A stretch of DNA of 45,009 bases from Bacteroidales bacterium. GTDB taxonomy: Bacteria > Bacteroidota > Bacteroidia > Bacteroidales > F082. Shown here piece by piece: positions 3,315 through 17,456 of the stretch. Where the stretch lies: positions 1-45,009 of the forward strand of contig WGDP01000027.1 of the NCBI GenBank assembly GCA_015493215.1. Direction: 5' to 3'. Positions within the stretch are counted from its first letter, which is position 1, and the number at the start of each line of letters is the position of its first letter. A program made the position numbers and the translations under genes. The notes under the pieces were generated by a model. The model did no database searches. It saw only the letters and a program-made list of their open reading frames with translations, and was not told where the DNA came from.

Positions 3315-5669
3315 ATGAAAGCAAAATTTTATTCACTTGGATTAGCCTTGGTTGTTTTTCTCTTTGCAGGATTACAGCTTTCGGCTCAAACACCCACCAT
3401 CACACTCCTTCAACCCACTGACCCGGGTATTGAATGGACAGCAGGTGGTACATACGTCATTTCATGGGTTGATAATTTCCCTCACGGAGTAGATATTTTA
3501 TTAACAGACGATAATGGTACCACTTTCGACACCATTGAAAAAAATGTTCTGGGTTCCGTTTATTACTGGAACACTACCGGTTATGCTTTGGGTACCCATT
3601 ACAAAATTAAAGTAGAAAGTACGTTGGCAAACAGCTATTCCGATATGAGCGGGCATACATTTAAACTGGTTGACCAAACCAACGGATACATCACTATGGA
3701 GCAACCCACCGGAGGCGAAACATGGTCGGAAAGCCAACAGTATTTAATTTCGTGGAACGATAACCTTACCGCTCCTGTTATGGTTGAGTTGTTAAAAAAC
3801 AATGCTCCCATTGATACGCTGGCTGCCTCCACAACAGGAAGCACTATCTATTGGACTATTCCAACAGGGTTGGCTGCATCCGGTTATATTTATAAAATCA
3901 GGGTTTCTTCAACAGTTTCAGGGGCAACCACCACACCTGCTGTAAGCAGTGGCTTTAAAATTATTGCTTCTTCAGCTACTTATGTCGAGGTTTATCAACC
4001 TAATGGAGGCGAAAGCTGGGCCAGAGGTTCTGTTCATGTTGTTTCATGGAACGATGATTTAACCGAGCCTGTCAATATTGAACTTTGGAAAGGCGGTACA
4101 AAATACACCGATCTTGCCACCAACGTTACCGGAACAACTTATTATTGGACAATTAGCGACACAACCGATGCTGCCACCAACTATCGGATATTTGTTCGCA
4201 GTACGTTAGACCCCACTCATGTGTATGACCGTAGCAACGGCTATTTTAAAATTACCGCTTCAACAGGAACTTACGTTGAAGTTTATCAACCCAATGGCGG
4301 TGAGCGTTGGGCCAGAGGAACCACACACAAAATTTCTTGGAACGATGATGTTTTTGAACCTGTATATATTCAATTATATAACTCATCAACGCATACCTAC
4401 ACAACATTAGACACCAATGTTATGGGAACCACCTGGGACTGGAATATAGACAATACAATCTCCACTACAGGTTATTATTATATTTATGTACGCAGTACAT
4501 TAGACCCCACACATGTTTACGACAGAAGCAACGGTCATTTCAGAATTACCGCTTCTACCGGAACCTATGTTGAAGTTTATCAACCCAATGGCGGTGAAAG
4601 CTGGGCAAGAGGTACAGCCCACCTTATTTCGTGGAATGATGATATTTTTGAGCCGGTGTATATTCAGTTATACAATGCATCAACGCATACCTACACAACC
4701 TTGGATACCAATGTGGTTGGAACTACCTGGGTATGGAACATTGACAATTCATTGGCCACAGGAAGCTATAGAATTTATGTTAAAAGCACATTAGACCCAA
4801 CCCATGTTTATGATTATGGTGGCACTTTCCACATTACCGCTTCCACCGGAACCTACGTTGAGGTATATCAACCCAATGGCGGTGAAAGCTGGGCAAGAGG
4901 CACCTCTCATCTTATTTCCTGGAATTGCGACTTTCCGGAAGGCGTAAACATTATTTTAAAACAGGGTTCTACCATAGTGGATACCATAGGACTGGATCTT
5001 CCAAAATCAACAATAGTTTGGGATATTCCCTCAACAGAACCCACAGCATCCAATTACAAAATTGAAATTTATAGTACATTAGACAGCTTACACTTGCACG
5101 ATTATAGTGATGGAAACTTTAGTATTACCGCATCAACCGGTACTTTTGTTGAAGTATTGGAACCCAACGGAGGTGAAGTTTGGGCTGCCGGTACAAGCTA
5201 TTGGATTTCGTGGAACGACGACTTTACAGAGGGCGTTAATATTGAATTATGGAAAAATGGTGTTTACGATTCCAATATCGCAACCGATGTTTTAGGTTCA
5301 GCTTATTCATGGGCTATCCCTGTTACCCAGGATCCGAATACTCATTATAAAGTTGAAGTTTACAGCACTTTAGATAGCCTTAACTTACATGACTTTAGTG
5401 ATGGCTATTTTGAGATTGTTCCGCAAACTATGATGTCGGTTTATCCCAATCCTGCTGATAACCATGTAACCATAAATATGGAAAACATGCGTAACAACAG
5501 CAGTTATACCCTTCAATTGTTTGACAGGTTTAATAAGCCGGTTATCGAGTTGCAAACCAATTCGAAAACAACCACCTTGTCAACAACAGGTTTATCCGAT
5601 GGAATTTACTTTGTAGTAGCAACCTCAGATAAAAACAGGGTTACAAAAAAAGTGATTATACAACATTAA
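3315..5669 (+). CDS. T9SS type A cargo with seven ~95-residue KNH-like repeats (paralog 1)
   Basis: This 784-residue secreted protein has a signal peptide (about residues 1-24, ending GLQLSAQ). Seven tandem domains of about 95 residues follow, from residue 28 to about 700. Each opens with a motif like VEVYQPNGGESWARGT, continues with ISWNDD and a V-I-L/Y-L strand, and closes with RSTLDPTHVYDRS and ITAS. The pattern matches the Ser-Thr-rich GPI-anchored/KNH-type beta-sandwich family (PF10342-like). The last ~80 residues form a type A sorting domain (YPNPADN near residue 710, ending DGIYFVVATSDKNRVTKKV). No catalytic motif is visible, so an adhesive or structural surface role is most likely. 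Repeats 3-6 are very similar to each other at the DNA level. The next gene but for a 286-base gap is a full-length paralog. Confidence 0.88.
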   Translation: MKAKFYSLGLALVVFLFAGLQLSAQTPTITLLQPTDPGIEWTAGGTYVISWVDNFPHGVDILLTDDNGTTFDTIEKNVLGSVYYWNTTGYALGTHYKIKVESTLANSYSDMSGHTFKLVDQTNGYITMEQPTGGETWSESQQYLISWNDNLTAPVMVELLKNNAPIDTLAASTTGSTIYWTIPTGLAASGYIYKIRVSSTVSGATTTPAVSSGFKIIASSATYVEVYQPNGGESWARGSVHVVSWNDDLTEPVNIELWKGGTKYTDLATNVTGTTYYWTISDTTDAATNYRIFVRSTLDPTHVYDRSNGYFKITASTGTYVEVYQPNGGERWARGTTHKISWNDDVFEPVYIQLYNSSTHTYTTLDTNVMGTTWDWNIDNTISTTGYYYIYVRSTLDPTHVYDRSNGHFRITASTGTYVEVYQPNGGESWARGTAHLISWNDDIFEPVYIQLYNASTHTYTTLDTNVVGTTWVWNIDNSLATGSYRIYVKSTLDPTHVYDYGGTFHITASTGTYVEVYQPNGGESWARGTSHLISWNCDFPEGVNIILKQGSTIVDTIGLDLPKSTIVWDIPSTEPTASNYKIEIYSTLDSLHLHDYSDGNFSITASTGTFVEVLEPNGGEVWAAGTSYWISWNDDFTEGVNIELWKNGVYDSNIATDVLGSAYSWAIPVTQDPNTHYKVEVYSTLDSLNLHDFSDGYFEIVPQTMMSVYPNPADNHVTINMENMRNNSSYTLQLFDRFNKPVIELQTNSKTTTLSTTGLSDGIYFVVATSDKNRVTKKVIIQH

Positions 5670-5711
5670 TTAAATGATGTAGAAAGCGTATAGTTCTTTT
5701 TATATACAAGG

Positions 5712-5811
5712 GAAACCGATTATAAACATCAAAAGCAGTACTTGCTAATTTTAACAATAAATCGGCAATATCTGTAAAAACGTGATTACCAATATGTTTA
5801 TAATCGGTTTC
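5712..5811. repeat. 18-bp perfect inverted repeat enclosing a 64-base spacer
   Basis: GAAACCGATTATAAACAT at 5712-5729 reappears as its exact reverse complement at 5794-5811. The 64-base AT-rich spacer makes a 100-base unit in the 286-base gap between two paralogous genes. There is no T-run and the loop is long for a terminator. A MITE-like remnant, a recombination footprint or a long-range regulatory stem are possible. Confidence 0.7.
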
Positions 5812-5955
5812 TGTATTGTAAAATTTGTGTCAAAATCAGAAACAAAACAGGCGTTATAACCAATTATTGTTATTTAGAATACTGTTTCATAACATTTTAA
5901 ATAATCTGGTATAATGTTTGAAAAAATATAATAGTATAACCTAAATTTTACGGTC

Positions 5956-8304
5956 ATGAAAAAAATATTTTACTCCCTCGGTTTAAGCTTTGTGGCTTTG
6001 TTTCTGTTTTCGAACATGGAGCTAAAAGCGCAAACGCCTTCCATCACGCTTCTTCAACCAACCGATCCCGGCATTGAGTGGACAGTTGGTGGTACGTATG
6101 TTATATCATGGGTTGACAATTTTACTTCCGGAGTTGATGTTCTGGTAAGCAGTAATGGCGGATCAACCTATTCGCTCATTGCATCAGATGTTCCCGGATC
6201 AACCTATTACTGGAACACAACCGGCTATCCCATTGGCCATCGTTACAAAATTAAAGTCAGAAGTCATTTGGCTCACAACTATTATTCAAGAAGTGCCCAT
6301 CGATTTAAATTGGTAGATCAGGCAGGAGGTTTTATAACCCTTGAACAACCCACAGGAAACGAAACCTGGGCTGAAGGAAGCACCTATCTTATTTCGTGGA
6401 ACGATAACCTGACAGCTCCCGTAACTGTTGAGTTGTTAAAAAATAATTCACCCTATTTAGTTATTTCCGCTTCTACAAAGGGAAGTACTTTGAGTTGGAC
6501 TGTGCCTACGGGATTGGCAAACAATTCTAAAATTTATAAAATCAGGGTTTCTTCAACGGTTCCCAATGCAACAACATCTCCCGCCACCAGCGGGCGGTTT
6601 AAAATTTCAGCTTCTGCCGGTACTTTTGTTGAGGTGTATCAACCCAATGGAGGTGAGAGATGGGCCAGAGGTACAACACATTTAATTTCGTGGAACGATG
6701 ATATTCCGGAGCCGGTTAATATTGAGCTATACAAAGGCAGTTCAAAGGTTGGCGATATTGCCACCAATGTTGTTGGCTCCACCTATTCGTGGACCATTGA
6801 TCCGACACAAACAGTGGCCAACAATTACAGAGTTTATGTTCGTAGTACCTTAGACCCAACCCATCTTTACGATAGAACCAACGGACATTTTAGAATCACT
6901 GCTTCCGGGGGAACCTTTGTTGAAGTTTATCAACCCAACGGTGGTGAAAACTGGGCCAGAGGAACTACGCACCTTATTTCGTGGAATGATGACCTTACCG
7001 AACCTGTTAACATTGAGTTGTATAAAGGAAATACAAAAGTTGCCGATCTTGCCACTAATGTTGTGGGATCAACTTACTGGTGGACCATTGACCCGACGAT
7101 AACCACCGCAAACAATTACAAAATTTATGTTCGTAGCACGCTTGACCCGACTCATCTGTATGACAGGAGTAATTCCAGATTTCACATCACTGCTTCTGCA
7201 GGAAGTTTTGTTGAAGTAATTCAGCCCAATGGCGGCGAAAGTTGGGCAAGGGGAACTACGCACCTTATTTCGTGGAATGACGACTTGTCGGAGCCTGTTG
7301 ACATTGAACTCTATCAGGGCAACACCAAAGTTAGCGACATTGCTACCAACGTTACAGGCTCAACCTATTCGTGGACAATCAGTCCCACCCAAACAATTGC
7401 CAATAACTATAGAATTTATGTGCGAAGCACTTTAGACCCAACCCATCTGTACGACAAAAGCGATACAAAATTTCATATTACAGCTTCAAGTGGCACCTAT
7501 GTTGTAGTTTATCAACCCAACGGAGGTGAAAACTGGGCCAGAGGCACTTCGCACCTGATATCGTGGAATGATGACTTTCAGGAAACCGTTAATATTGAGT
7601 TATGGAAAGGTGGTTCGTTTAATGCTACCATAGCTTCAAATATTACGGGATCAACATACTCGTGGGATATCCCGACTGCAACCACACCGGGTTCCAACTA
7701 TAAAGTTAAAATTTACAGTACCGTTGACGGAGCATTAAAAGACTTTAGTGATGCTAATTTTACCATAGCAGCATCTGCCGGTACATACGTAACCATCAAT
7801 CAGCCCAACGGAGGAGAGGTGTGGACAGCAGGTAACGACTATTGGATTACCTGGGAAGACGATTTACCGGAAGCCGTTAACATTGAATTGTGGAAAGGTG
7901 GTAGTTTTAACTCAACCATTGCTTCAAATGTTACGGGGTCAACTTATGTGTGGACTATTCCTGCCACTCAAACGTTAGGAACCAATTACAAAGTTAAAAT
8001 TTACAGCACTTTGGATAACACCATTAAAGATTTTAGCGATGCTAACTTTGAAATCGCAGGGCCAATGATGCTATCGGCATATCCCAATCCGGCAAACGAT
8101 GAAACAACCATTAGCATGAAAAATATGCCGGGCAACAACTATACAGTGCAGCTGTTCAACAGATTTAATGTTAAAATTGGTGAGTACCACAGCACATCAT
8201 CAACCGTTAATATTTCAACCGAAAATCTTGCTGACGGTATTTACTTTGTTGTGGTTACCTCCGACAAAACAAGTGCCACCTCTAAAATTATTGTACAGCA
8301 TTAA
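5956..8304 (+). CDS. T9SS type A cargo with seven ~95-residue KNH-like repeats (paralog 2)
   Basis: This 782-residue protein is the tandem duplicate of the gene at 3315. It has the same architecture: a signal peptide ending NMELKAQ, seven KNH-type repeats of about 95 residues, and a type A sorting domain (YPNPANDETTISMKN, ending DGIYFVVVTSDKTSATSKI). The first repeats of both proteins are almost the same (ITLLQPTDPGIEWT-GGTYVISWVDNF), and repeat order is preserved. This points to whole-gene duplication rather than independent assembly. Its central repeats use SWARGTTHLISWNDDL and IATNVVGSTY with little divergence. No catalytic residues are apparent. It is followed by a strong hairpin terminator at 8327, so it is probably the last gene of its transcript. 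Confidence 0.88.
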   Translation: MKKIFYSLGLSFVALFLFSNMELKAQTPSITLLQPTDPGIEWTVGGTYVISWVDNFTSGVDVLVSSNGGSTYSLIASDVPGSTYYWNTTGYPIGHRYKIKVRSHLAHNYYSRSAHRFKLVDQAGGFITLEQPTGNETWAEGSTYLISWNDNLTAPVTVELLKNNSPYLVISASTKGSTLSWTVPTGLANNSKIYKIRVSSTVPNATTSPATSGRFKISASAGTFVEVYQPNGGERWARGTTHLISWNDDIPEPVNIELYKGSSKVGDIATNVVGSTYSWTIDPTQTVANNYRVYVRSTLDPTHLYDRTNGHFRITASGGTFVEVYQPNGGENWARGTTHLISWNDDLTEPVNIELYKGNTKVADLATNVVGSTYWWTIDPTITTANNYKIYVRSTLDPTHLYDRSNSRFHITASAGSFVEVIQPNGGESWARGTTHLISWNDDLSEPVDIELYQGNTKVSDIATNVTGSTYSWTISPTQTIANNYRIYVRSTLDPTHLYDKSDTKFHITASSGTYVVVYQPNGGENWARGTSHLISWNDDFQETVNIELWKGGSFNATIASNITGSTYSWDIPTATTPGSNYKVKIYSTVDGALKDFSDANFTIAASAGTYVTINQPNGGEVWTAGNDYWITWEDDLPEAVNIELWKGGSFNSTIASNVTGSTYVWTIPATQTLGTNYKVKIYSTLDNTIKDFSDANFEIAGPMMLSAYPNPANDETTISMKNMPGNNYTVQLFNRFNVKIGEYHSTSSTVNISTENLADGIYFVVVTSDKTSATSKIIVQH

Positions 8305-8388: not shown

Positions 8389-9882
8389 ATGGACAGAAAA
8401 GAACAATTACGATTTTGCAGCAGATGCAAACATCAGGCTTTTGATAAAAAACGTGGAATAATCTGTAGCTTAACCGGAGAACACGCTGACTTTGAAGAAA
8501 TATGCCCATCCTTTTCGGGTAATGTTGAAGAGGTTGAAGCGGAAAAAGCAAACGAAATAAAACAACACGAAAAAAACGAAGATTTAATTGAGTCAGGCCG
8601 CCATTTTAAAATATCAGAACTTCTTATTCCCGGAAAAACATACTTCTTTACCCCTCTTTTACTTTATGCAAATATTATAATATTTGTTGCCATGGTTGCT
8701 TCTGGAGCCAACCTGTTTTCGCCTTCAATACATGATTTAATAAAGTGGGGTGGCGAATATAAACTACTGACGATAAACGGACAATACTGGCGATTGGTTA
8801 CGGCTCTTTTTGTTCATGGTGGTATTATTCATCTGTTTGCCAATATGTACGCGTTTTTAATTATCGCTATTTTGCTTGAGCCGCTTATAGGAAAATTTCG
8901 TTTTGGCTTGGCCTATTTATTTTCAGGCATTGCAGGCAATATTACAAGTATTTGGTTGAACGTTGCTGTCATTGGTGTTGGCGCATCGGGAGCAATATTG
9001 GGGTTGTATGGCATTTATATATCGCTTGTTACAACCAGTACGGTAAGTAAAAAAACACGATTAATTATTCTACCCAGCATGTTGGTATATACCTTATACA
9101 TGATTGCTTCAGGATTGATGAATGCTAAAGTTGATAATACAGCTCACTTCAGCGGTTTTATTACGGGAATTATTTTTGGCTACGCGTTTTATTCAGGAAT
9201 TGTTTCGCCGGAAGAAAAATCGAAAAACCGAATTCATGTTTTAATAGCCATAACTGCAGTAATACTTTTTGGATACATCGTTTTTAATTCAAACAGCCCC
9301 AATGTCAGATATCAAAAACTTCTTTTCTCCTTTTACAAGAATAATGAAAAAGGGACAGAAGCCTATAATTTTAATGAAACCGACCCCGATGAAGTGATTT
9401 TACACAAACTGAAAACCGGAGAAAAATATTGGCGCAATTGCATCAATACAACATTTCAAATAGAAATGATTAATGGATTACCCGGTGAGTTAAAAAATAC
9501 AATCAGTGAACTTAGAGCTTACTCCAACAACCAACAAATAATATGTGGGAATATGGAACGAAAAATAAAAACCCACTCAAACAGGTACGATACCGATATA
9601 GTAGTTTACAGTAATAAAGTTGATGAATATTTGAAATCAGGCTTTATAAAAATCTTTAATACTAAAAAGTTTTATAGTCCGAAGCAGGCGTTTTTGAAGC
9701 TTCTGTCGATTCAGAATAATATTTTAGTGGTAGTAGATGATACACCCCTTCCCGGCAGGCATCTTAACGACCTTGATCCGGGCAGTATTGATTCAATTCT
9801 TTTTTTAAGCTGCGATGCAGCAGAAAAATTATATGGCCCGATGGCGAGCTGGGGTGCTTATGTGGTAAAAACATCAAAATAA
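8389..9882 (+). CDS. Rhomboid-family intramembrane serine protease with Cys4 N-terminus and TonB-plug-like C-terminus
   Basis: This 497-residue protein has three parts. Residues 8-41 hold four cysteines (C10, C13, C26, C39) in FCSRC, IICSLTG and EICPSF, a likely small metal-binding knuckle facing the cytoplasm. Residues ~85-275 are a rhomboid core with HGGIIHLFANM (H143, H148, N152), the catalytic serine in GASGAILGLYG (S200) and its histidine in TAHFSGF (H253). A further hydrophobic segment lies at about 281-299. The last ~58 residues (440-497) match the end of SusC-type plug domains: ILVVVDDTPLPG, then SIDSILFLSCDAAEKLYG and GAYVVKTSK. Rhomboids cleave transmembrane segments; the plug-like tail has no barrel attached and would lie in the periplasm. 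The substrate is unknown. A terminator precedes the gene, so it appears to be a single transcription unit. Confidence 0.9.
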   Translation: MDRKEQLRFCSRCKHQAFDKKRGIICSLTGEHADFEEICPSFSGNVEEVEAEKANEIKQHEKNEDLIESGRHFKISELLIPGKTYFFTPLLLYANIIIFVAMVASGANLFSPSIHDLIKWGGEYKLLTINGQYWRLVTALFVHGGIIHLFANMYAFLIIAILLEPLIGKFRFGLAYLFSGIAGNITSIWLNVAVIGVGASGAILGLYGIYISLVTTSTVSKKTRLIILPSMLVYTLYMIASGLMNAKVDNTAHFSGFITGIIFGYAFYSGIVSPEEKSKNRIHVLIAITAVILFGYIVFNSNSPNVRYQKLLFSFYKNNEKGTEAYNFNETDPDEVILHKLKTGEKYWRNCINTTFQIEMINGLPGELKNTISELRAYSNNQQIICGNMERKIKTHSNRYDTDIVVYSNKVDEYLKSGFIKIFNTKKFYSPKQAFLKLLSIQNNILVVVDDTPLPGRHLNDLDPGSIDSILFLSCDAAEKLYGPMASWGAYVVKTSK

Positions 9883-9983: not shown

Positions 9984-12788
9984 ATGCATTGTCAGATAAA
10001 AGGTTTAAAATTTCTTTTGTTTATTCTAATTTTTGGAATGGGGTTCAAAAGCTATGCACAGCAGGAACCCCTTGAAAACATTAAAATTACGATTGCTTTT
10101 GACAATGATCCTTCCGCCTCGGTGCAGGTAATAAAAACACCCCTTAGGTACAATAAAGACTTTGGCGTTATCCTGCAAATGGACAATGCCAACATCGACG
10201 TTTTTTCAAAAGTGTATGACTATTTTAGAGGTTTTAGCGGGTATCCCGGCCTGTTTTTTACCACGGGCGTTATTAACAACCCTGTTTTTTTTAAGATGGG
10301 AACCAATATTTACTCCTTTAATCAGCAGGGAATTGATGTGCATGATACCGACCCTGATATTTTAACCTGGTCGAACATACAAACATTGTGGGCTGCTTTT
10401 TTTGATGTGGCCAATCAGGGGATGACCTCCCCTCCTTCCTCCGACGATTATTATGAAGTAAACCGAAACATTAGCTATTCGACCTATCGCTTTAACGAAT
10501 CCTTTAGTCAGCCGAAGTATCACCCTGACGTTTATGTTGTTCCCAACAACACTCAAAGTCAGATTAATGTGGCCAAAGCAGCCGGAAATCTTGCCATATA
10601 CTCCGAAAGTGCAGCAGCGATTCCCAACCCTTTTAATGTGTCAAACTTTTCTTCATTTTACAATTTCGAATTAAAACGAACCCACATAACCTCTAACCTG
10701 TTTAACGACATAAGCCAACTGGCTGCTCAAAGTCAAAATGGCGACCATTTAATTGGCAGTTATTACTGTGGCGGTTTTGATAAAACCGGCGAAATTTCAT
10801 TTTCTGATTTTCAAGGCCAAATGAATCAGGTTGCCAGCACCTACGGACGGGATGGACTGGATAACATTTGGGTGGCATCGGCCAAGGAAGTTTTTGAATA
10901 CCTTAATCTGAAACAAAAGATTAATGTTATTCAAACTGTTAACAACAATAAACTTGAAATTACCTTTTCGGCCGATAACCTGCCCATGGATTACCGTTAT
11001 TATGCGCTTACCCTTGTTGTAACCAGCAACGAGCACATTACAGGTGTAAATATTACCGGTGCCAGTCAAACCAATTACAAATACAACAGCGATTCGGCGC
11101 TTATCAACTTACAATGGGACGGAGGAAACCCGCCAACACCTTACCAATTGTTTAACAATGCGTATGCACAAGCGCAACAAAACCCCGATTCGGCGCACTG
11201 TTTAATAATGTACGACTATTTACGTATGATTTCCAATCCCGACAGTGTTGCAAAATATCAGGATATGCTGTGTGGAATATGTACTTCGGTTGACTTCGAC
11301 TTTTGTAAATATGAGTTTACCATTCCCGACGACACCATTTGTACGGGAGATACTGTAACATTAACGGCACCCGACGATATGCAGTCGTATCTTTGGTCGA
11401 ATGATTCGGTAACACAAAGCATTACGGTTTCGCCGGAAACCACCACCGATTATTGGGTAGAAGTGGTTACGCAAGATGGAAAAACGGCAAGAGATACAGC
11501 AACAATAACGGTATATAACACGCCTGTTATTGCTGCTTCGCAAAATGATACTATCGCCATTTTAGCAGGCTCAACCGATACCCTTTGGGTGAGTGTAAAC
11601 GATGATGTTAGCTATCTTTGGAGCAACGGAGGCACCGATTCGGCAACCATCGTACCGGCACCGAATGAGGGATTTGACAATTATTGGGTGGATATAACAA
11701 AAGACTATACCGTACATCAATGTACCCTTCGGAAAAATTTTGTAACGCAGGTATCGTACGAAAGCATTGTTGATTTTACCTGGGATAGCGTATGTTTTGG
11801 CGATACCGCAACACTGATTGCCAGCATTCAAACCAACGATTCGGTAGTGGCCGTTAAATGGGACTTAAACGAAGATGGCGAATTTGAAGATGCTTCTGGA
11901 GATACGGTAAAATATGTTTTTGAAACTCCCGGCAACATTTTGGTGGGGTTGAGGGTGATTTATTTCTCAGGAAAAATGGATGTGGCCTACAATTCGGTTC
12001 CGGTGGCTGATAATCCCGTGGCCGACTTTAGTTTTAACAACACTTGTTTGGGAACAACCACGCTGTTTCACGATTCAAGTACAGTAACTGTTGGTGAGAT
12101 TGTACAATGGGACTGGGATTTTGGCGATGGTGCAACGGGCAATTATTTTGAGTCGTCTCATTATTATCAGGAAGTTGGGAGTTATAATGTACAATTATTG
12201 GTAACCAGCAGCTTCGGATGTAAAGATTCAACAATCAAAACAGTTGTAATTACCCAACCCGATGAGCTACAGTTAAAATCGGATGATGGTACGGTAATTA
12301 GCTATAACGACACTGTTTATTTTACACAGGACAACCCTGTTGTAATGATTGTCCAAAATTTTGGAATTTACGACTCGGTGGTGTGGAATGGCAACCATAA
12401 GGGTATCAGTTATGAAATCTCGCAAGAAGGAGCCTACTCGGTAATTGGATACAAAGGGGGTTGTACCACTACAAAAACCTTTTTTGCATTGGAAAAAAAT
12501 GGCCCCGGCCCGGGACCCGGCCCCGCAACTTCAAAAGTAATGAACCTTTTTACGCCCAACAGCGATGGCTTTAACGATGTATGGACAGTAAATACTACTG
12601 ATATTGTATTCCCCATAAAAGTTACCGTTTACAACCGTTTTGGCAATGCCGTGTATTCTTCTGACAATTACCAAAACGACTGGGACGGCTATTATAAAGG
12701 AAACCCGTTGCCGCAGGCAACCTATTATTTTGTAATTGAAGATGCCAACGGAAACATTTTTCGAGGGCCTGTAACAATAGTTCGATAA
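9984..12788 (+). CDS. T9SS type B cargo: degenerate polysaccharide-deacetylase-like domain, Ig/PKD modules, CHU_C-type sorting domain
   Basis: This 934-residue protein has a signal peptide ending GFKSYAQ. Residues ~30-390 align by eye with the N-terminal region of the protein at 13803 (KTPLRYNKDF against KTPLKYNKAF; DILTWSNIQTLW against DYLTWPQLTELW). That region has a NodB-like layout. Here the metal-site positions have changed: the DD pair reads D67-N68 and the NHG motif reads NQG (Q145), so deacetylase activity is unlikely. Ig-like modules follow, then a PKD domain (VQWDWDFGDGATG). A linker of four Gly-Pro pairs (residues 840-847) leads into a type B sorting domain (FTPNSDGFNDVW, YNRFGNAVY). 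Type B cargos usually need a PorP/SprF partner, and one is encoded one base downstream. It is probably a large surface or filament protein. Confidence 0.85.
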   Translation: MHCQIKGLKFLLFILIFGMGFKSYAQQEPLENIKITIAFDNDPSASVQVIKTPLRYNKDFGVILQMDNANIDVFSKVYDYFRGFSGYPGLFFTTGVINNPVFFKMGTNIYSFNQQGIDVHDTDPDILTWSNIQTLWAAFFDVANQGMTSPPSSDDYYEVNRNISYSTYRFNESFSQPKYHPDVYVVPNNTQSQINVAKAAGNLAIYSESAAAIPNPFNVSNFSSFYNFELKRTHITSNLFNDISQLAAQSQNGDHLIGSYYCGGFDKTGEISFSDFQGQMNQVASTYGRDGLDNIWVASAKEVFEYLNLKQKINVIQTVNNNKLEITFSADNLPMDYRYYALTLVVTSNEHITGVNITGASQTNYKYNSDSALINLQWDGGNPPTPYQLFNNAYAQAQQNPDSAHCLIMYDYLRMISNPDSVAKYQDMLCGICTSVDFDFCKYEFTIPDDTICTGDTVTLTAPDDMQSYLWSNDSVTQSITVSPETTTDYWVEVVTQDGKTARDTATITVYNTPVIAASQNDTIAILAGSTDTLWVSVNDDVSYLWSNGGTDSATIVPAPNEGFDNYWVDITKDYTVHQCTLRKNFVTQVSYESIVDFTWDSVCFGDTATLIASIQTNDSVVAVKWDLNEDGEFEDASGDTVKYVFETPGNILVGLRVIYFSGKMDVAYNSVPVADNPVADFSFNNTCLGTTTLFHDSSTVTVGEIVQWDWDFGDGATGNYFESSHYYQEVGSYNVQLLVTSSFGCKDSTIKTVVITQPDELQLKSDDGTVISYNDTVYFTQDNPVVMIVQNFGIYDSVVWNGNHKGISYEISQEGAYSVIGYKGGCTTTKTFFALEKNGPGPGPGPATSKVMNLFTPNSDGFNDVWTVNTTDIVFPIKVTVYNRFGNAVYSSDNYQNDWDGYYKGNPLPQATYYFVIEDANGNIFRGPVTIVR

Positions 12789-12789
12789 C

Positions 12790-13806
12790 ATGAAAAGCAT
12801 TCGAATACATATCATATTATTGCTGCTGCTGTTGAGTGTTACAGGGTTTTCACAACAGTTTCCGTTAACCACACAATATCTGTTTAACCCATATGCACTT
12901 ACCCCTGCCATGGCAGGAGTTACAGGCTATTCGGAAGTTTTTTTAAACTACCGTTCCGATTGGACCGGCATTGACGGCCATCCGCAAACCGCACGATTTA
13001 ATGCTTCCGGAAACATTTACAAACATAAAATGTGGCTGGGAGGAGAAATGTATCTCGATAATACCGATATCTTATCGAGGTTTAAAGCCAGTCTTAGCTA
13101 CACTTATAAACTTAAGGTTCAAAACGACCAGTTTATCCATTTTGCCGTTTGGGGAAGCTTTTATCAAAATGTTATTAACTACACCAATGCCATTGGCGTT
13201 GACCCCAACGACCCCCTGTTTAAAGATATAACCAGTTTGGTGGCATCAAAGTTTAATGCCGGTTTCGGGTTAAATTATAGCTGGAGAAAAATGAATGTCG
13301 GGTTTTCAATTCCAACGCTGTTTGCTTCGCGACAGGAAGTAATAGACGGCCAGGGGGTTAATTTTAATATGCGACAAGAGTTTCTTTTCCACCTGTCCAA
13401 TATTTTTACCCTAAATAAAAATTGGGATATGCAAACCTATGGGGTGTTTAGGAAAACCACAACCGAGCCTTTGAATTACGAGCTTTCGGTTATGTTTATT
13501 TTCGTTCAGCGTTTTTGGACAGGTATTTTATACCGTAAGGGTGGTGCTGTAGGTGTAAACATAGGGGGAAATCTGGTACGCGGCCTGGCGTTTAACTACT
13601 CTTACGAAGTACCCATAGGCGGTATCAACGCCCATTCGGGTGGCTCTCATGAGTTTACCCTTGGCTGGCGTTTCGGTGCAAAAAACAATAAGTTCTTCGA
13701 AAACAACAAAACCTATTTTAGTAAAGAAAGAAAAGTTCGCAAAACAAATACAAATAACAATTATCCGCCCATTTATGATTTTCAATACCGAAAGAATAAA
13801 CGATGA
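12790..13806 (+). CDS. PorP/SprF family type IX secretion system membrane protein
   Basis: This 338-residue protein has a signal peptide (about residues 1-21, ending SVTGFSQ) followed by the typical PorP/SprF opening QYLFNPYALTPAMAGVTGY and LNYRSDWTGIDGHPQT. Later barrel-type strands include FAVWGSFYQ, FNAGFGLNYSW, RFWTGILYRKGGAVGV and the terminal HEFTLGWRFG. Family members are outer-membrane proteins tied to T9SS; SprF is needed for surface delivery of SprB, a type B cargo. The gene begins one base after the stop of the type B cargo, and its own stop overlaps the next ATG (ATGA, 13803-13806). Translational coupling and a dedicated cargo partner are therefore likely. Length is close to the family norm. 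Confidence 0.95.
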   Translation: MKSIRIHIILLLLLLSVTGFSQQFPLTTQYLFNPYALTPAMAGVTGYSEVFLNYRSDWTGIDGHPQTARFNASGNIYKHKMWLGGEMYLDNTDILSRFKASLSYTYKLKVQNDQFIHFAVWGSFYQNVINYTNAIGVDPNDPLFKDITSLVASKFNAGFGLNYSWRKMNVGFSIPTLFASRQEVIDGQGVNFNMRQEFLFHLSNIFTLNKNWDMQTYGVFRKTTTEPLNYELSVMFIFVQRFWTGILYRKGGAVGVNIGGNLVRGLAFNYSYEVPIGGINAHSGGSHEFTLGWRFGAKNNKFFENNKTYFSKERKVRKTNTNNNYPPIYDFQYRKNKR

Positions 13807-16800
13807 AATTATTCCGGTTATATCGATTGGTGTTAGCTGGCTTTCTGGTATTTGCAGCCATTAACACCTCACTTGCGCAGGCGCCACAACCCGTTCAGGT
13901 CGATTCGGTGGTTATTTTATTTAATCAACATCCCGACACATTAAGCGTTACTAAAACACCATTAAAATACAACAAGGCTTTTGCCATGAGCTTTCAGGAG
14001 GATGACTCGCATGTTGATATTTACAACACGGCTTATCCGCTGTTTGAAGGAAACGGTTCTACGGGCGGACTTTATTATACCGATGGCTGCGGAAACTCCA
14101 AAACCTTTAAAATGTCGTCGGCTATTTATATTTTTAATGGTTATCATGTTGACTTATTGGCACCCGGGCCTTACCATGTGCCCGATTATTTAACCTGGCC
14201 ACAGCTAACCGAACTGTGGGAACATGGCTGGGGAGTGGAGAATCATGGCATTTCAGACCCTGTAACCGGCCATGCCAATTACGACATTCAACGTACCCAG
14301 AGTTATGCAAAACGAAAAGTAAGCGATTCGCTTTATATTAAAACTTTTGTGCAACCCAATCAGGGTGATGCCTATTTCGTACCGTGTCAAAACAACCATT
14401 ATAATGGTTTTATCAGCCATGGAATACAGGATGGTTTAAATGCCGATGAACACGGAATAGATGTAAACGACACTACTATCGACTGGTTGCAAATGCCTAA
14501 AATAAACAGGATTTTTGACGGGAACGGATATAAAAACAAAGCCGATGAGTTGTATGGTTACAGTCAGCAGGGATCAAACAGATGGGTTCCGTGGGGCTGG
14601 CATACCACTTTAACAGCAGCTTTTTCTTCCGAGCTTACTCAAATATATTACACCTATGGCGAGTTGGGGATGGACAACATTTTAATTGCTCCCGATGATG
14701 AAATTCTGGATTATCTTGCTGTTAAACAAGTGGTAACGGTGAATAAAACGTTAACAAGCAATAGGCTTACATTAACTTTTTCAGGCGATGTTCCATCCGA
14801 CCGAAGATTTTACGCCTTAACCCTTAAGGTTTTTTCCGATGCCCAAATAAACGCCATTGATGTTTATGGAACCAACGATTATTCCTACTCAGGCCTGTAT
14901 CAGGATTCGGCGTTAATTAATCTTGCGTGGGACGGACGGTACTATTACCCCATGGAGTATCTTGCCGACTCGTTTACAACCGTTGCAAGCCAGTCTGCCA
15001 GCCAGTATGATGCCATGGTGGCCATGGATTATGTTATTTTGATGGACTGCGGACAACAAAAAGACAGCCTTCGCGATGTGTTGTGCGGCTTAAATCAACA
15101 GGGATGGAACCCCGGATATGATGCGGGATTTTGTGATGTTATGTCAGTTGATATAGGAAACGATACCACAGTTTTGGCCGACAGCTGTGTTCAGTTTTCG
15201 GGGCCGGATGGCGATTACACCTACTTATGGAGCACCGGCGACACCACAAAAAACATTGAAGTTTGCTCCGAAACGGACACCACGGTTTGGCTTACTATCT
15301 TTAATAACCTGAATTTTTGTGCCACTGACAGCGCTACGGTTTTTATACACACCTACTCTTTTTCGCTTGGTCCTGACACAACAATTTGTCAGGGCGAATG
15401 CGTATCGCTTGCGGGGCCTGATAGTATGTTGTCTTACCGGTGGTTTGTTGCCGACACGGTTTTCGACACATCACAAGTTATCACTGTTTGCCCTGTTGAC
15501 ACCACCGAATATGTTTTAGAGGTTACCGACCTGATGGGGTATATAACTTCAGATACAATTGTTGTGAATGTTTTACCAATTCCCGAGTGGAGCCTTGCCC
15601 CCGATACCGTTATTAATCTTGGTGAGTGCGACTCTGTTTTCGGGCCTGACGGGTTTACCGGATATCATTGGTACACGGCTGACACGCTGTACGATACCCT
15701 TAAAAACATACAGGTTTGCCCTGTCGATACAACTGCATATGCATTGGTTACAACAACCGCTCTGGGGTGCCAATCTTCCGATACCATTGTTTACAATGTA
15801 ATTACATTGAACTTTTCGTTGGGTTCCGACACAGCTGTTTGCTTAAACAATTCCATAACACTTACAGGCCCCGATTCAATGGAAATTTACCGGTGGTACG
15901 AATCGGATACATCCAATCTGATTGATACGGTTCAAAGTATTACCGTTTCCCCGATTGATACAACCATGTATATTTTATATGTGGCTGACAGCCTCGGTGC
16001 TTACAATTCGGATAGTATTGTGGTAAATGTTTTGCCCCTGCCCGATGCTTCCATAACCTTTAGCAACTCGGCTTGCGACGGCAATGTTGCCCGTATCGTG
16101 GTTACCCCGTCAGCCGGTTTCGACAGCTATATCTGGCATTACAACAATCAGGTTGACACCTCCTCTTTTGGTGTGTTGGCATTTATTCCCAATCAATCGC
16201 AAAACGTTGTTGTTGAAGTGGTTGATAGTAGTAATTGTGTAACGCAGGATCAAACTTTTGTTGAGGTGTGGCCTAATCCCCTGCTCACACCTCCTAACGA
16301 CACCGCTGCCTGCACAGGCGACAGTGTTACATTTATTGCAGGCGGAAATGGGGATATTTGGTGGGAAGACCTTTTGGGAAATCAAATTTCCGATACCAAC
16401 TATATCACAACCAAAACAATAGCCGACACCGTTTTTATTGTTAAAGACACTTCTGCTTACGGATGTTTAAGCACCGATTCGGTAACTTTAACCATGTTGC
16501 CGCTTCCTGAAGTGGTGCTGCATCATCCCGATAGCGCCGTTTGTGCCTATACCACCCTGACCCTTACAGGAAGCGGTGCCGATAGTTATGTTTGGTTTTT
16601 TAACAACAGCCAAAAAACGGGTGATACCATTTTGTTTTATACTATTGATACCACCGGTTTTCTGTTGCAGGGAACCTCTTCAGAGGGATGTGTTAATTTC
16701 GATTCGGCCACAGTTAATGTCAAAGCTGCTCCGGACGTTTCTGCCTGGGGATTGCTGCCTGCATATTGCCAGAATGATGCTCCCGATTCGTTGTTTGGTA

Positions 16801-17456
16801 TTCCCGAAGGAGGTGTTTTTTCGGGAAGTGGAATGGTGGGAACAATTTTTACGCCTTCCATTGCAGGAACAGGAGAACAACAGGTGATTTATGCTTTTAC
16901 AAACACCGAAACCTGTACCGGATACGATACTTTAACAACATTTATTTACAGTGGGGGAAGCAGCATCGATTTGGGCGATCCCGACACCTTATCTCCCGGC
17001 GACACCATCAAACTTGATGCAGGCGAAGGGTTCGACCGCTATTTATGGAACACGGGCGACACAACACAGGTGCTTACCGTACCCTATAACCCGCATTTTG
17101 CCGGAACCCGCCGCTACTCGGTAGTGGGAATCACCAATCAGTGTACATCAACCGGAAGTGTTTACATTACTTTTGTTGACCCTTCGGGAATTTCGGAACA
17201 TGAACAATCAGGAGTAACCGTTTATCCCAATCCGTTTTTTGATGAGTTTAACCTTTCATTTCGCAAGCCACAAAACAACGTTAAGATTTGGCTGTTCGAC
17301 ATTTACGGAAAGGTAGTTTATTCCGAAACCATTGCTTTTTTACCTGAAAGCAGTAAAAAAACCATCCATTTAAATAAGTTACCGTACGGCGTATATTTTG
17401 TTAAGTGGCAATCGGGCAGCCAAACGGGAATATCAAAAATTGTAAAGAAGAAATAA
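13803..17456 (+). CDS. T9SS type A cargo: polysaccharide-deacetylase-like domain plus about eight Ig-like repeats
   Basis: This 1217-residue protein has a signal peptide ending NTSLAQ. Its N-terminal region (residues ~35-400) has a NodB-like layout: AFAMSFQEDDSHVD supplies an Asp pair (D67, D68), and LTWPQLTELWEHGWGVENHGISDP supplies H148, with D152 where a second His is usual. A metal-dependent carbohydrate deacetylase is plausible but unproven. From about residue 440 to 1110 there are about eight Ig-like modules of ~75 residues, several sharing GPDS/GPDG, a Y-x-W core, PVDTT-Y and SDTIVVNVL. A type A sorting domain ends the protein (VYPNPFFDEF near 1141, LPYGVYFVKW). The ATG overlaps the PorP/SprF stop by four bases. 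It is the paralog of the cargo at 9984, which carries the other sorting-domain type. Confidence 0.85.
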   Translation: MKLFRLYRLVLAGFLVFAAINTSLAQAPQPVQVDSVVILFNQHPDTLSVTKTPLKYNKAFAMSFQEDDSHVDIYNTAYPLFEGNGSTGGLYYTDGCGNSKTFKMSSAIYIFNGYHVDLLAPGPYHVPDYLTWPQLTELWEHGWGVENHGISDPVTGHANYDIQRTQSYAKRKVSDSLYIKTFVQPNQGDAYFVPCQNNHYNGFISHGIQDGLNADEHGIDVNDTTIDWLQMPKINRIFDGNGYKNKADELYGYSQQGSNRWVPWGWHTTLTAAFSSELTQIYYTYGELGMDNILIAPDDEILDYLAVKQVVTVNKTLTSNRLTLTFSGDVPSDRRFYALTLKVFSDAQINAIDVYGTNDYSYSGLYQDSALINLAWDGRYYYPMEYLADSFTTVASQSASQYDAMVAMDYVILMDCGQQKDSLRDVLCGLNQQGWNPGYDAGFCDVMSVDIGNDTTVLADSCVQFSGPDGDYTYLWSTGDTTKNIEVCSETDTTVWLTIFNNLNFCATDSATVFIHTYSFSLGPDTTICQGECVSLAGPDSMLSYRWFVADTVFDTSQVITVCPVDTTEYVLEVTDLMGYITSDTIVVNVLPIPEWSLAPDTVINLGECDSVFGPDGFTGYHWYTADTLYDTLKNIQVCPVDTTAYALVTTTALGCQSSDTIVYNVITLNFSLGSDTAVCLNNSITLTGPDSMEIYRWYESDTSNLIDTVQSITVSPIDTTMYILYVADSLGAYNSDSIVVNVLPLPDASITFSNSACDGNVARIVVTPSAGFDSYIWHYNNQVDTSSFGVLAFIPNQSQNVVVEVVDSSNCVTQDQTFVEVWPNPLLTPPNDTAACTGDSVTFIAGGNGDIWWEDLLGNQISDTNYITTKTIADTVFIVKDTSAYGCLSTDSVTLTMLPLPEVVLHHPDSAVCAYTTLTLTGSGADSYVWFFNNSQKTGDTILFYTIDTTGFLLQGTSSEGCVNFDSATVNVKAAPDVSAWGLLPAYCQNDAPDSLFGIPEGGVFSGSGMVGTIFTPSIAGTGEQQVIYAFTNTETCTGYDTLTTFIYSGGSSIDLGDPDTLSPGDTIKLDAGEGFDRYLWNTGDTTQVLTVPYNPHFAGTRRYSVVGITNQCTSTGSVYITFVDPSGISEHEQSGVTVYPNPFFDEFNLSFRKPQNNVKIWLFDIYGKVVYSETIAFLPESSKKTIHLNKLPYGVYFVKWQSGSQTGISKIVKKK

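Follow-up and report, generated by a model that had tools for sequence, protein, structure and literature searches.

The closest described relative of the proteins considered here is BoPDA (BACOVA_03992) of Bacteroides ovatus (PDB 4dwe, 9d44, 9d4i, 9d5t and 9d60; Pfam PF15421 / IPR032762), in which a CE4 (NodB) polysaccharide-deacetylase barrel is inserted in a beta-sandwich and followed by a C-terminal helical bundle. According to PMC11713874, BoPDA is without the second motif-2 His, binds Co2+ through a His213-Asp102 dyad and keeps the motif-5 His337. The same text presents it as a single 499-residue protein from a capsule locus, occurring in one copy per genome, with a described architecture that includes no type IX secretion system (T9SS) tail, and calls it unique to Bacteroides, its family being known mainly from that genus. 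Here, we describe a locus of a Bacteroidales bacterium (GTDB family-level group F082) in which two domains of this kind, one with an intact-looking metal site and one with a ruined site, are carried by T9SS cargo proteins, A and B, encoded on either side of a PorP/SprF-family gene. The locus lies in what we call the window, i.e., the whole 45,009-nucleotide stretch that was analysed (GenBank assembly GCA_015493215.1, contig WGDP01000027.1, positions 1 to 45,009 of the forward strand), which makes up one 45-kb contig among the 355 of a 3.9-Mb draft genome.

Other described systems resemble parts of this locus. CtAxeA (PDB 2c71) is a CE4 acetylxylan esterase with a His-Asp dyad and without a motif-2 metal His, which is active on acetylxylan according to PMC11713874; it differs in its short CE4 domain of 208 residues, for which that text tells of no barrel-in-sandwich insertion. 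CE4 folds without a working active site are represented by BA3943 (7bkf, inactive by the title of its PDB entry), BA0150 (4m1b) and the probably inactive EcCDA (2vyo), the status of the latter two being taken from PMC10967932. For secretion, PG1035 with PorP and SprB with SprF are reported as binding partners (PMC9143113), and two type B substrates need their cognate PorP/SprF proteins to be secreted (PMC12618676); neither abstract speaks of a CE4-like domain in SprB or PG1035. Among the papers listed by literature searches for polysaccharide deacetylases (NodB) and their pseudoenzymes together with type IX secretion, PorP or SprF, none deals with such a pair in its title or abstract opening, most subscription journals being outside the coverage.

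Homology and predicted fold of proteins A and B

Protein A (934 residues, 9984..12788) and protein B (1217 residues, 13803..17456), which lie on the + strand as do all features given below, were described in the initial annotation as paralogues with alignable N-terminal regions and a NodB-like layout, and both statements were borne out. The N-terminal ~400 residues are homologous at 29–33% identity (BLASTP of the N-domains, 191 bits, E 1e-53), and a search of the whole genome with the A domain at E <= 0.001 returned only itself and B (3.5e-43), i.e., two copies of the domain. AlphaFold2 models built on a 95-row alignment have a mean predicted local distance difference test score (pLDDT) above 95 for both domains, namely 95.1 for residues 29–432 of A (10068..11279; predicted template modelling score, pTM, 0.93) and 95.5 for residues 30–432 of B (13890..15098; pTM 0.94). 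Each model contains a distorted (beta/alpha) CE4-type barrel. In B, strands 6–11 and 18–22 come first, followed by the barrel, strands 283–347 and helices 355–399, and the order is the same in A, so that the architecture of both models is that of the BoPDA family.

Among solved structures, BoPDA itself (4dwe) is the best Foldseek match of both domains (E 6.7e-23 and 1.3e-22). VIA-align places 4dwe at Z 29.7 for B (root-mean-square deviation, rmsd, 2.9 over 333) and Z 28.7 for A (rmsd 2.6 over 328), far above the second-best match, a virus turret protein (Z 17.2 for B and 16.5 for A). The best 50 VIA-align matches are mostly CE4-type proteins, the rest being mainly GH57 enzymes, and CE4 deacetylases reach down to Z 11–12 within them, alongside GH57 and virus-turret barrels; CtAxeA stands at Z 13.6 against B (rmsd 2.6 over 165, 13% identity). 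Because 4dwe lies so far above the others and most of the listed matches are CE4-type, the fold predicted for A and B is NodB/CE4 in its BoPDA form, with the barrel inserted in a beta-sandwich and helices after it. The turret protein that is runner-up for both domains comes from Haloferax tailed virus 1 (PDB 8qpg, chain TA).

The relation to deacetylases was shown via profiles and structure models after single-sequence scans had failed to show it. A Pfam scan of full-length A and B found no deacetylase family, an NCBIfam scan detected the T9SS tails, B having in addition a single weak match well short of the cut-off (E 0.028), and phmmer with B alone against the PDB gave one match, an adenosine deaminase at E 1.6. 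A profile built from 22 B domains finds a single PDB match at E <= 10, namely BoPDA (4dwe; E 3.2e-13, profile positions 23–410), with the Asp-Asp pair, the His and the motif-5 His aligned; together with the structural matches, this extends homology to BoPDA across the whole domain. Of the 42 sequences in the combined A and B set, 32 are in turn matched by PF15421 (Polysacc_deac_3) at E <= 10, with 1.1e-14 as the best value, and two of six relatives scored pass its cut-off (L047 B, 54.2; L042 A, 41.5).

The active sites of A and B

The residues named in the initial annotation were read correctly, A having D67, N68 and Q145, and B having D67, D68, H148 and, four residues after H148, D152. B thereby carries the BoPDA-type set: D67-D68 in motif 1 (14001..14006; QEDD in B, QDD in BoPDA), a single motif-2 metal His, H148 (14244..14246), the PN of motif 3, and the motif-5 His, H267 (14601..14603). 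R236 near motif 4 (14508..14510) probably corresponds to Arg297 of BoPDA, as matched by eye, and is kept in 61 of 61 intact domains. Here and below, a domain is called intact when all four residues (D, D, H, H) are present and degenerate when any of the four differs. The sequence of B contains the residues of the His-Asp metal dyad, and that of A contains neither.

A pair of motif-2 metal His, as in the H-H-D triad, is found in neither protein, B having H148 followed by D152 (14256..14258) and A having Q145. It had been suggested that the Asp in place of the second His makes B atypical, a suggestion that we do not uphold: in the 61 intact A and B domains the position is filled by S (28), D (16), G (12), N (3), T (1) or A (1). 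Given this variation within the branch and the His-Asp dyad by which BoPDA holds its metal, Asp152 of B is no defect. The canonical second His occurs in six of nine distant relatives (L056, L119, L120, L121, L164 and L165; NHSYSH and similar). Because the 61 intact domains have other residues there, the aligned residues indicate that the BoPDA-like family includes both triad and dyad forms.

In A, the equivalents of D68, H148 and the motif-5 His are all lost, being replaced by N68 (D67-N68, 10182..10187), Q145 (10416..10418) and G263 (10770..10772), respectively; the last, which stands opposite H267 of B, adds to the losses listed in the initial annotation. The Arg near motif 4 is present as R232 (10677..10679). 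Among the relatives, the pattern of loss is not even wear. Fifty-five columns are at least 90% conserved in the 61 intact domains; with the four catalytic ones set aside, the remaining 51 have a mean retention of 87% across 30 degenerate A domains. In the catalytic columns, the same 30 domains keep the first motif-1 Asp in 77%, the metal Asp in 37%, the motif-2 His in 0% and the motif-5 His in 17%. Some drop in these columns is built into the definition of degenerate; the loss of the motif-2 His in 30 of 30 is not, and this His is the sole lost residue of the four in two A clades. The Arg near motif 4 is kept in 93% of the degenerate A domains, and W100, R132, S135 and G117 (domain numbering) in 100%. 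The Asn before the motif-2 His is kept in 40% and the motif 3 Asn in 13%; their loss along with the site suggests that these two Asn serve the active site. Window A retains both.

The A domain is under purifying selection and is not decaying. Between same-genus genomes, its ratio of nonsynonymous to synonymous substitution rates (dN/dS) is 0.076 at dS 0.14 and 0.025 at a saturated dS of 1.84, the corresponding values being 0.027 and 0.056 for PorP, 0.049 for the kinase-like gene downstream, and 0.037 and 0.033 for the B domain, for which saturation made a third comparison incomputable. No stop codons occur in the three same-genus A genes compared. A thus combines a kept (predicted) fold, lost catalytic residues and purifying selection, as expected of a CE4 pseudoenzyme. 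The CE4 pseudoenzymes BA3943 and BA0150 and the probably inactive EcCDA are among the structural matches of A, but with 169–183 residues aligned at 7–9% identity, and they belong to another CE4 branch.

Relatives, gene order and secretion tails

A genome-contig scan gave 93 relatives, the best 80 of which were kept and fall into 66 loci. Their titles are mostly Bacteroidales, Bacteroidetes or Bacteroidota, with one Chlorobiota (L087), one Candidatus Paceibacterota (L123, possibly a binning error) and two unassigned (L064, L118). We refer to the positions of A and B in a locus as the A slot and the B slot. The 205 domain instances were reduced to 121 by removing identical or contained sequences, and 118 entered the tree, a truncated L057 copy and the two pieces of a broken L117 B gene being left out; near-identical rows (e.g., L053, L054, L083, L109) stay in this set.

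All four residues are kept in 49 of 55 B-slot domains, in 12 of 42 A-slot domains, and in 20 of 21 copies elsewhere, the lone degenerate one among the latter being A-type and at a contig end. Thirty-six loci have both domains; a degenerate A accompanies an intact B in 22 of them, and the reverse arrangement is found in 0. Single-residue differences occur in a B copy (L048, DDHL) and in several A copies (DDRH, DDSH, DDLH). On the tree of 118, the minimum number of changes is 6 in A-slot rows, 4 in B-slot rows and 10 in all. If regain is barred, there are 11 separate losses, 7 in A-type proteins (one group including the contig-end copy) and 4 in B proteins. Both trees were built by a quick procedure and contain open forks as well as some long branches, and the support of the outgroup fork is 68 in the later tree and 99 in the first. 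Loss is also seen in A slots that hold B-lineage domains (L038, L039, L104). The site thus seems to have been lost several times in the same gene position among relatives, and a true bias of the A slot to degeneration is likely, although not proven. Fisher's test on the first set (A 12/35, B 40/45 and other 15/15 intact; p 4e-7) was set aside, the rows being related.

In addition, the intact/degenerate pair is found within single proteins. The B proteins of L106 (2249 residues) and L107 (1624 residues) each have two copies of the domain, the first intact (DDHH) and the second degenerate (DAFQ and ENQS), and in both loci the gene preceding PorP encodes a protein that carries a type B tail but has no match to the CE4-like domain. 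Therefore, the pair also arises in cis. A point against this is L102, in which the sole visible B domain, on a cut contig, is degenerate.

Some loci depart from the window arrangement in other ways. In L097 (B at 4198) and L114 (B at 7755), the B site is lost too, the metal Asp being replaced by Asn and both His by Gln beside an NNNE A, and these loci are without an intact copy. In L117, the B gene is broken into overlapping frames (4131–5318 and 5273–8296) and adjoins a degenerate A. The A-slot domains of L066, L069, L070, L071, L076, L087 and L104, which form three clades, cluster with B-lineage domains, a pattern that would fit replacement of the original domain by one from B. In L091, L092, L094 and L115, B is followed by an additional protein with a type B tail, which has no CE4-like domain, and by an additional PorP.

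By the family profile A2, the domain is present in 52 of the 173 genomes in the family-level group to which the window belongs, spread over 12 of 16 genera, and in 17 of 198 taken from the order, where some matches are weak and partial. This branch shows that the kin of BoPDA are more widely distributed than Bacteroides. PF15421, searched in 296 genomes drawn from the phylum, matched 4 of them at E <= 0.001, the window genome included, and none over its cut-off; as a probe for this branch, the Pfam model performs poorly.

In the window, protein A begins with a signal-like N-terminus (by eye), and its degenerate domain is followed by PKD modules (best stretch 12012..12242, PF18911 E 1.3e-17) and a T9SS type B sorting domain (12534..12785; CHU_C E 3.4e-20, TIGR04131 E 1.2e-20). 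Protein B has Ig-like repeats after its intact domain and ends in a T9SS type A sorting domain (17220..17453; PF18962 E 3.8e-13, TIGR04183 E 1.6e-10). Between them, the PorP/SprF-family protein is encoded at 12790..13806 (PF11751 E 6.5e-50, TIGR03519 E 4.9e-56). The matches of TIGR04131 and TIGR03519 exceed the NCBIfam cut-offs, and the T9SS translocon gene sprA is found in the genome (SprA, 2639 bits). The PorP/SprF gene starts one base past the stop of A, and its own stop overlaps the start of B (ATGA). The three genes are thus tightly packed and probably form one operon, as the initial annotation had it for A and B. With its type B tail and a PorP/SprF gene one base away, A resembles the SprB-SprF and PG1035-PorP pairs. 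Downstream (3') of B lie a sugar/nucleoside-kinase-like protein, which is under every NCBIfam cut-off, and AsnS. Upstream, A is immediately preceded by a Rhomboid-domain protein (8389–9882), whose N-terminus is rich in cysteine and whose C-terminal part is long, and two adjoining T9SS type A cargos (3315–5669 and 5956–8304) have six Kre9/KNH-type Ig-like stretches each.

Possible roles of the two domains

We favour, with a probability of about 0.6, the explanation that A is a PorP-anchored pseudoenzyme that binds a polymer, and that B is a dyad-type CE4 deacetylase that modifies it. Both cargos would carry a BoPDA-type CE4 (NodB) domain threaded into a beta-sandwich of carbohydrate-binding type. 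In B, D68 and H148 would hold the metal, with D67 as the base and H267 as the acid, and the protein, shown on or released from the surface via its type A tail, would edit the acetyl groups of a polymer that is extracellular or on the cell surface. A, with the same fold and most other conserved residues but without the metal site, would be held on the outer membrane by its PorP/SprF partner via the type B tail; its most likely role there is to bind the substrate polymer of B, so that the two proteins would share a ligand.

Several observations weigh against this explanation. No deacetylase activity of BoPDA was detected on chitin, xylan or p-nitrophenyl acetate (pNPA), according to PMC11713874, because of which the activity of B has to be treated as putative. 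The kinship to deacetylase families anticipated in the initial annotation is found from the 22-B-domain profile and in the wider A plus B set, and the two window domains themselves miss the PF15421 gathering score of 28.5 bits (A, 18.0; B, no hit). The pairing of a pseudoenzyme with an enzyme, also put forward in the initial annotation, is common among the relatives but no rule, as 11 of the 36 two-domain loci have both domains intact and 3 have both degenerate. An independent-pairs test on the first tree, which offered 3 pairs only, was not significant for an A-slot bias. In 11 loci, some of them near-identical (L061, L072, L079, L083, L084, L095, L098, L106, L107, L109, L113), the A-slot protein is without a CE4-like domain, so a degenerate partner is not required. 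Finally, B of L122 (on the same contig as L055) is without the N-domain, and the sole copy in that genome is a degenerate A (DNND).

The inactivity of BoPDA, which binds metal, would also fit a scheme in which neither domain is catalytic and both are surface glycan binders using the CE4 groove, the residues of B being kept as metal helps binding. The position of the domain in a sandwich of the carbohydrate-binding module (CBM) type and the 6 degenerate copies among 55 in the B slot speak for such a scheme; however, 49 of 55 B-slot and 12 of 42 A-slot domains keep all four residues, including the general-acid His, which does not bind metal, and we regard the scheme as unlikely. Less likely again is that A is still an enzyme, working with other residues or without metal, e.g., in another carbohydrate-active reaction within the same barrel. 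Its replacement residues are conserved within one clade (NNNE in 6 of 6 rows), and the frequent retention of the first motif-1 Asp in degenerate A domains could mean that the pocket has taken on a new function. Against this, the motif-2 His is gone from every degenerate A domain and the motif-5 His from 83% of them, and the former is replaced by Q, K, R, N, S or L in different clades, unlike one new chemistry. That A is a decaying copy destined for loss, to which the loci with a domain-free A-slot protein might point, is very improbable given the low dN/dS of the A domain and its stop-free genes.

The locus presents a known fold in a new setting, with a well-supported pseudoenzyme beside a likely enzyme. 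More tentatively, an intact and a dead CE4 domain side by side may constitute a recurrent two-site surface device of Bacteroidales. The dead site, either anchored through PorP/SprF or following the live one in a fusion, would hold on to an acetylated polymer for the live site to edit, and such pairs would have evolved repeatedly through inactivation of one of the two copies. The fold of BoPDA (PF15421), regarded in 2024 as exclusive to Bacteroides, is now extended to T9SS surface cargo of other Bacteroidales, and a single family shows the canonical triad, the dyad and the dead site. The A slot offers a natural series of graded inactivations, which may be used to test the role of the domain without catalysis, and the two tandem proteins would be a simple construct for the same test.

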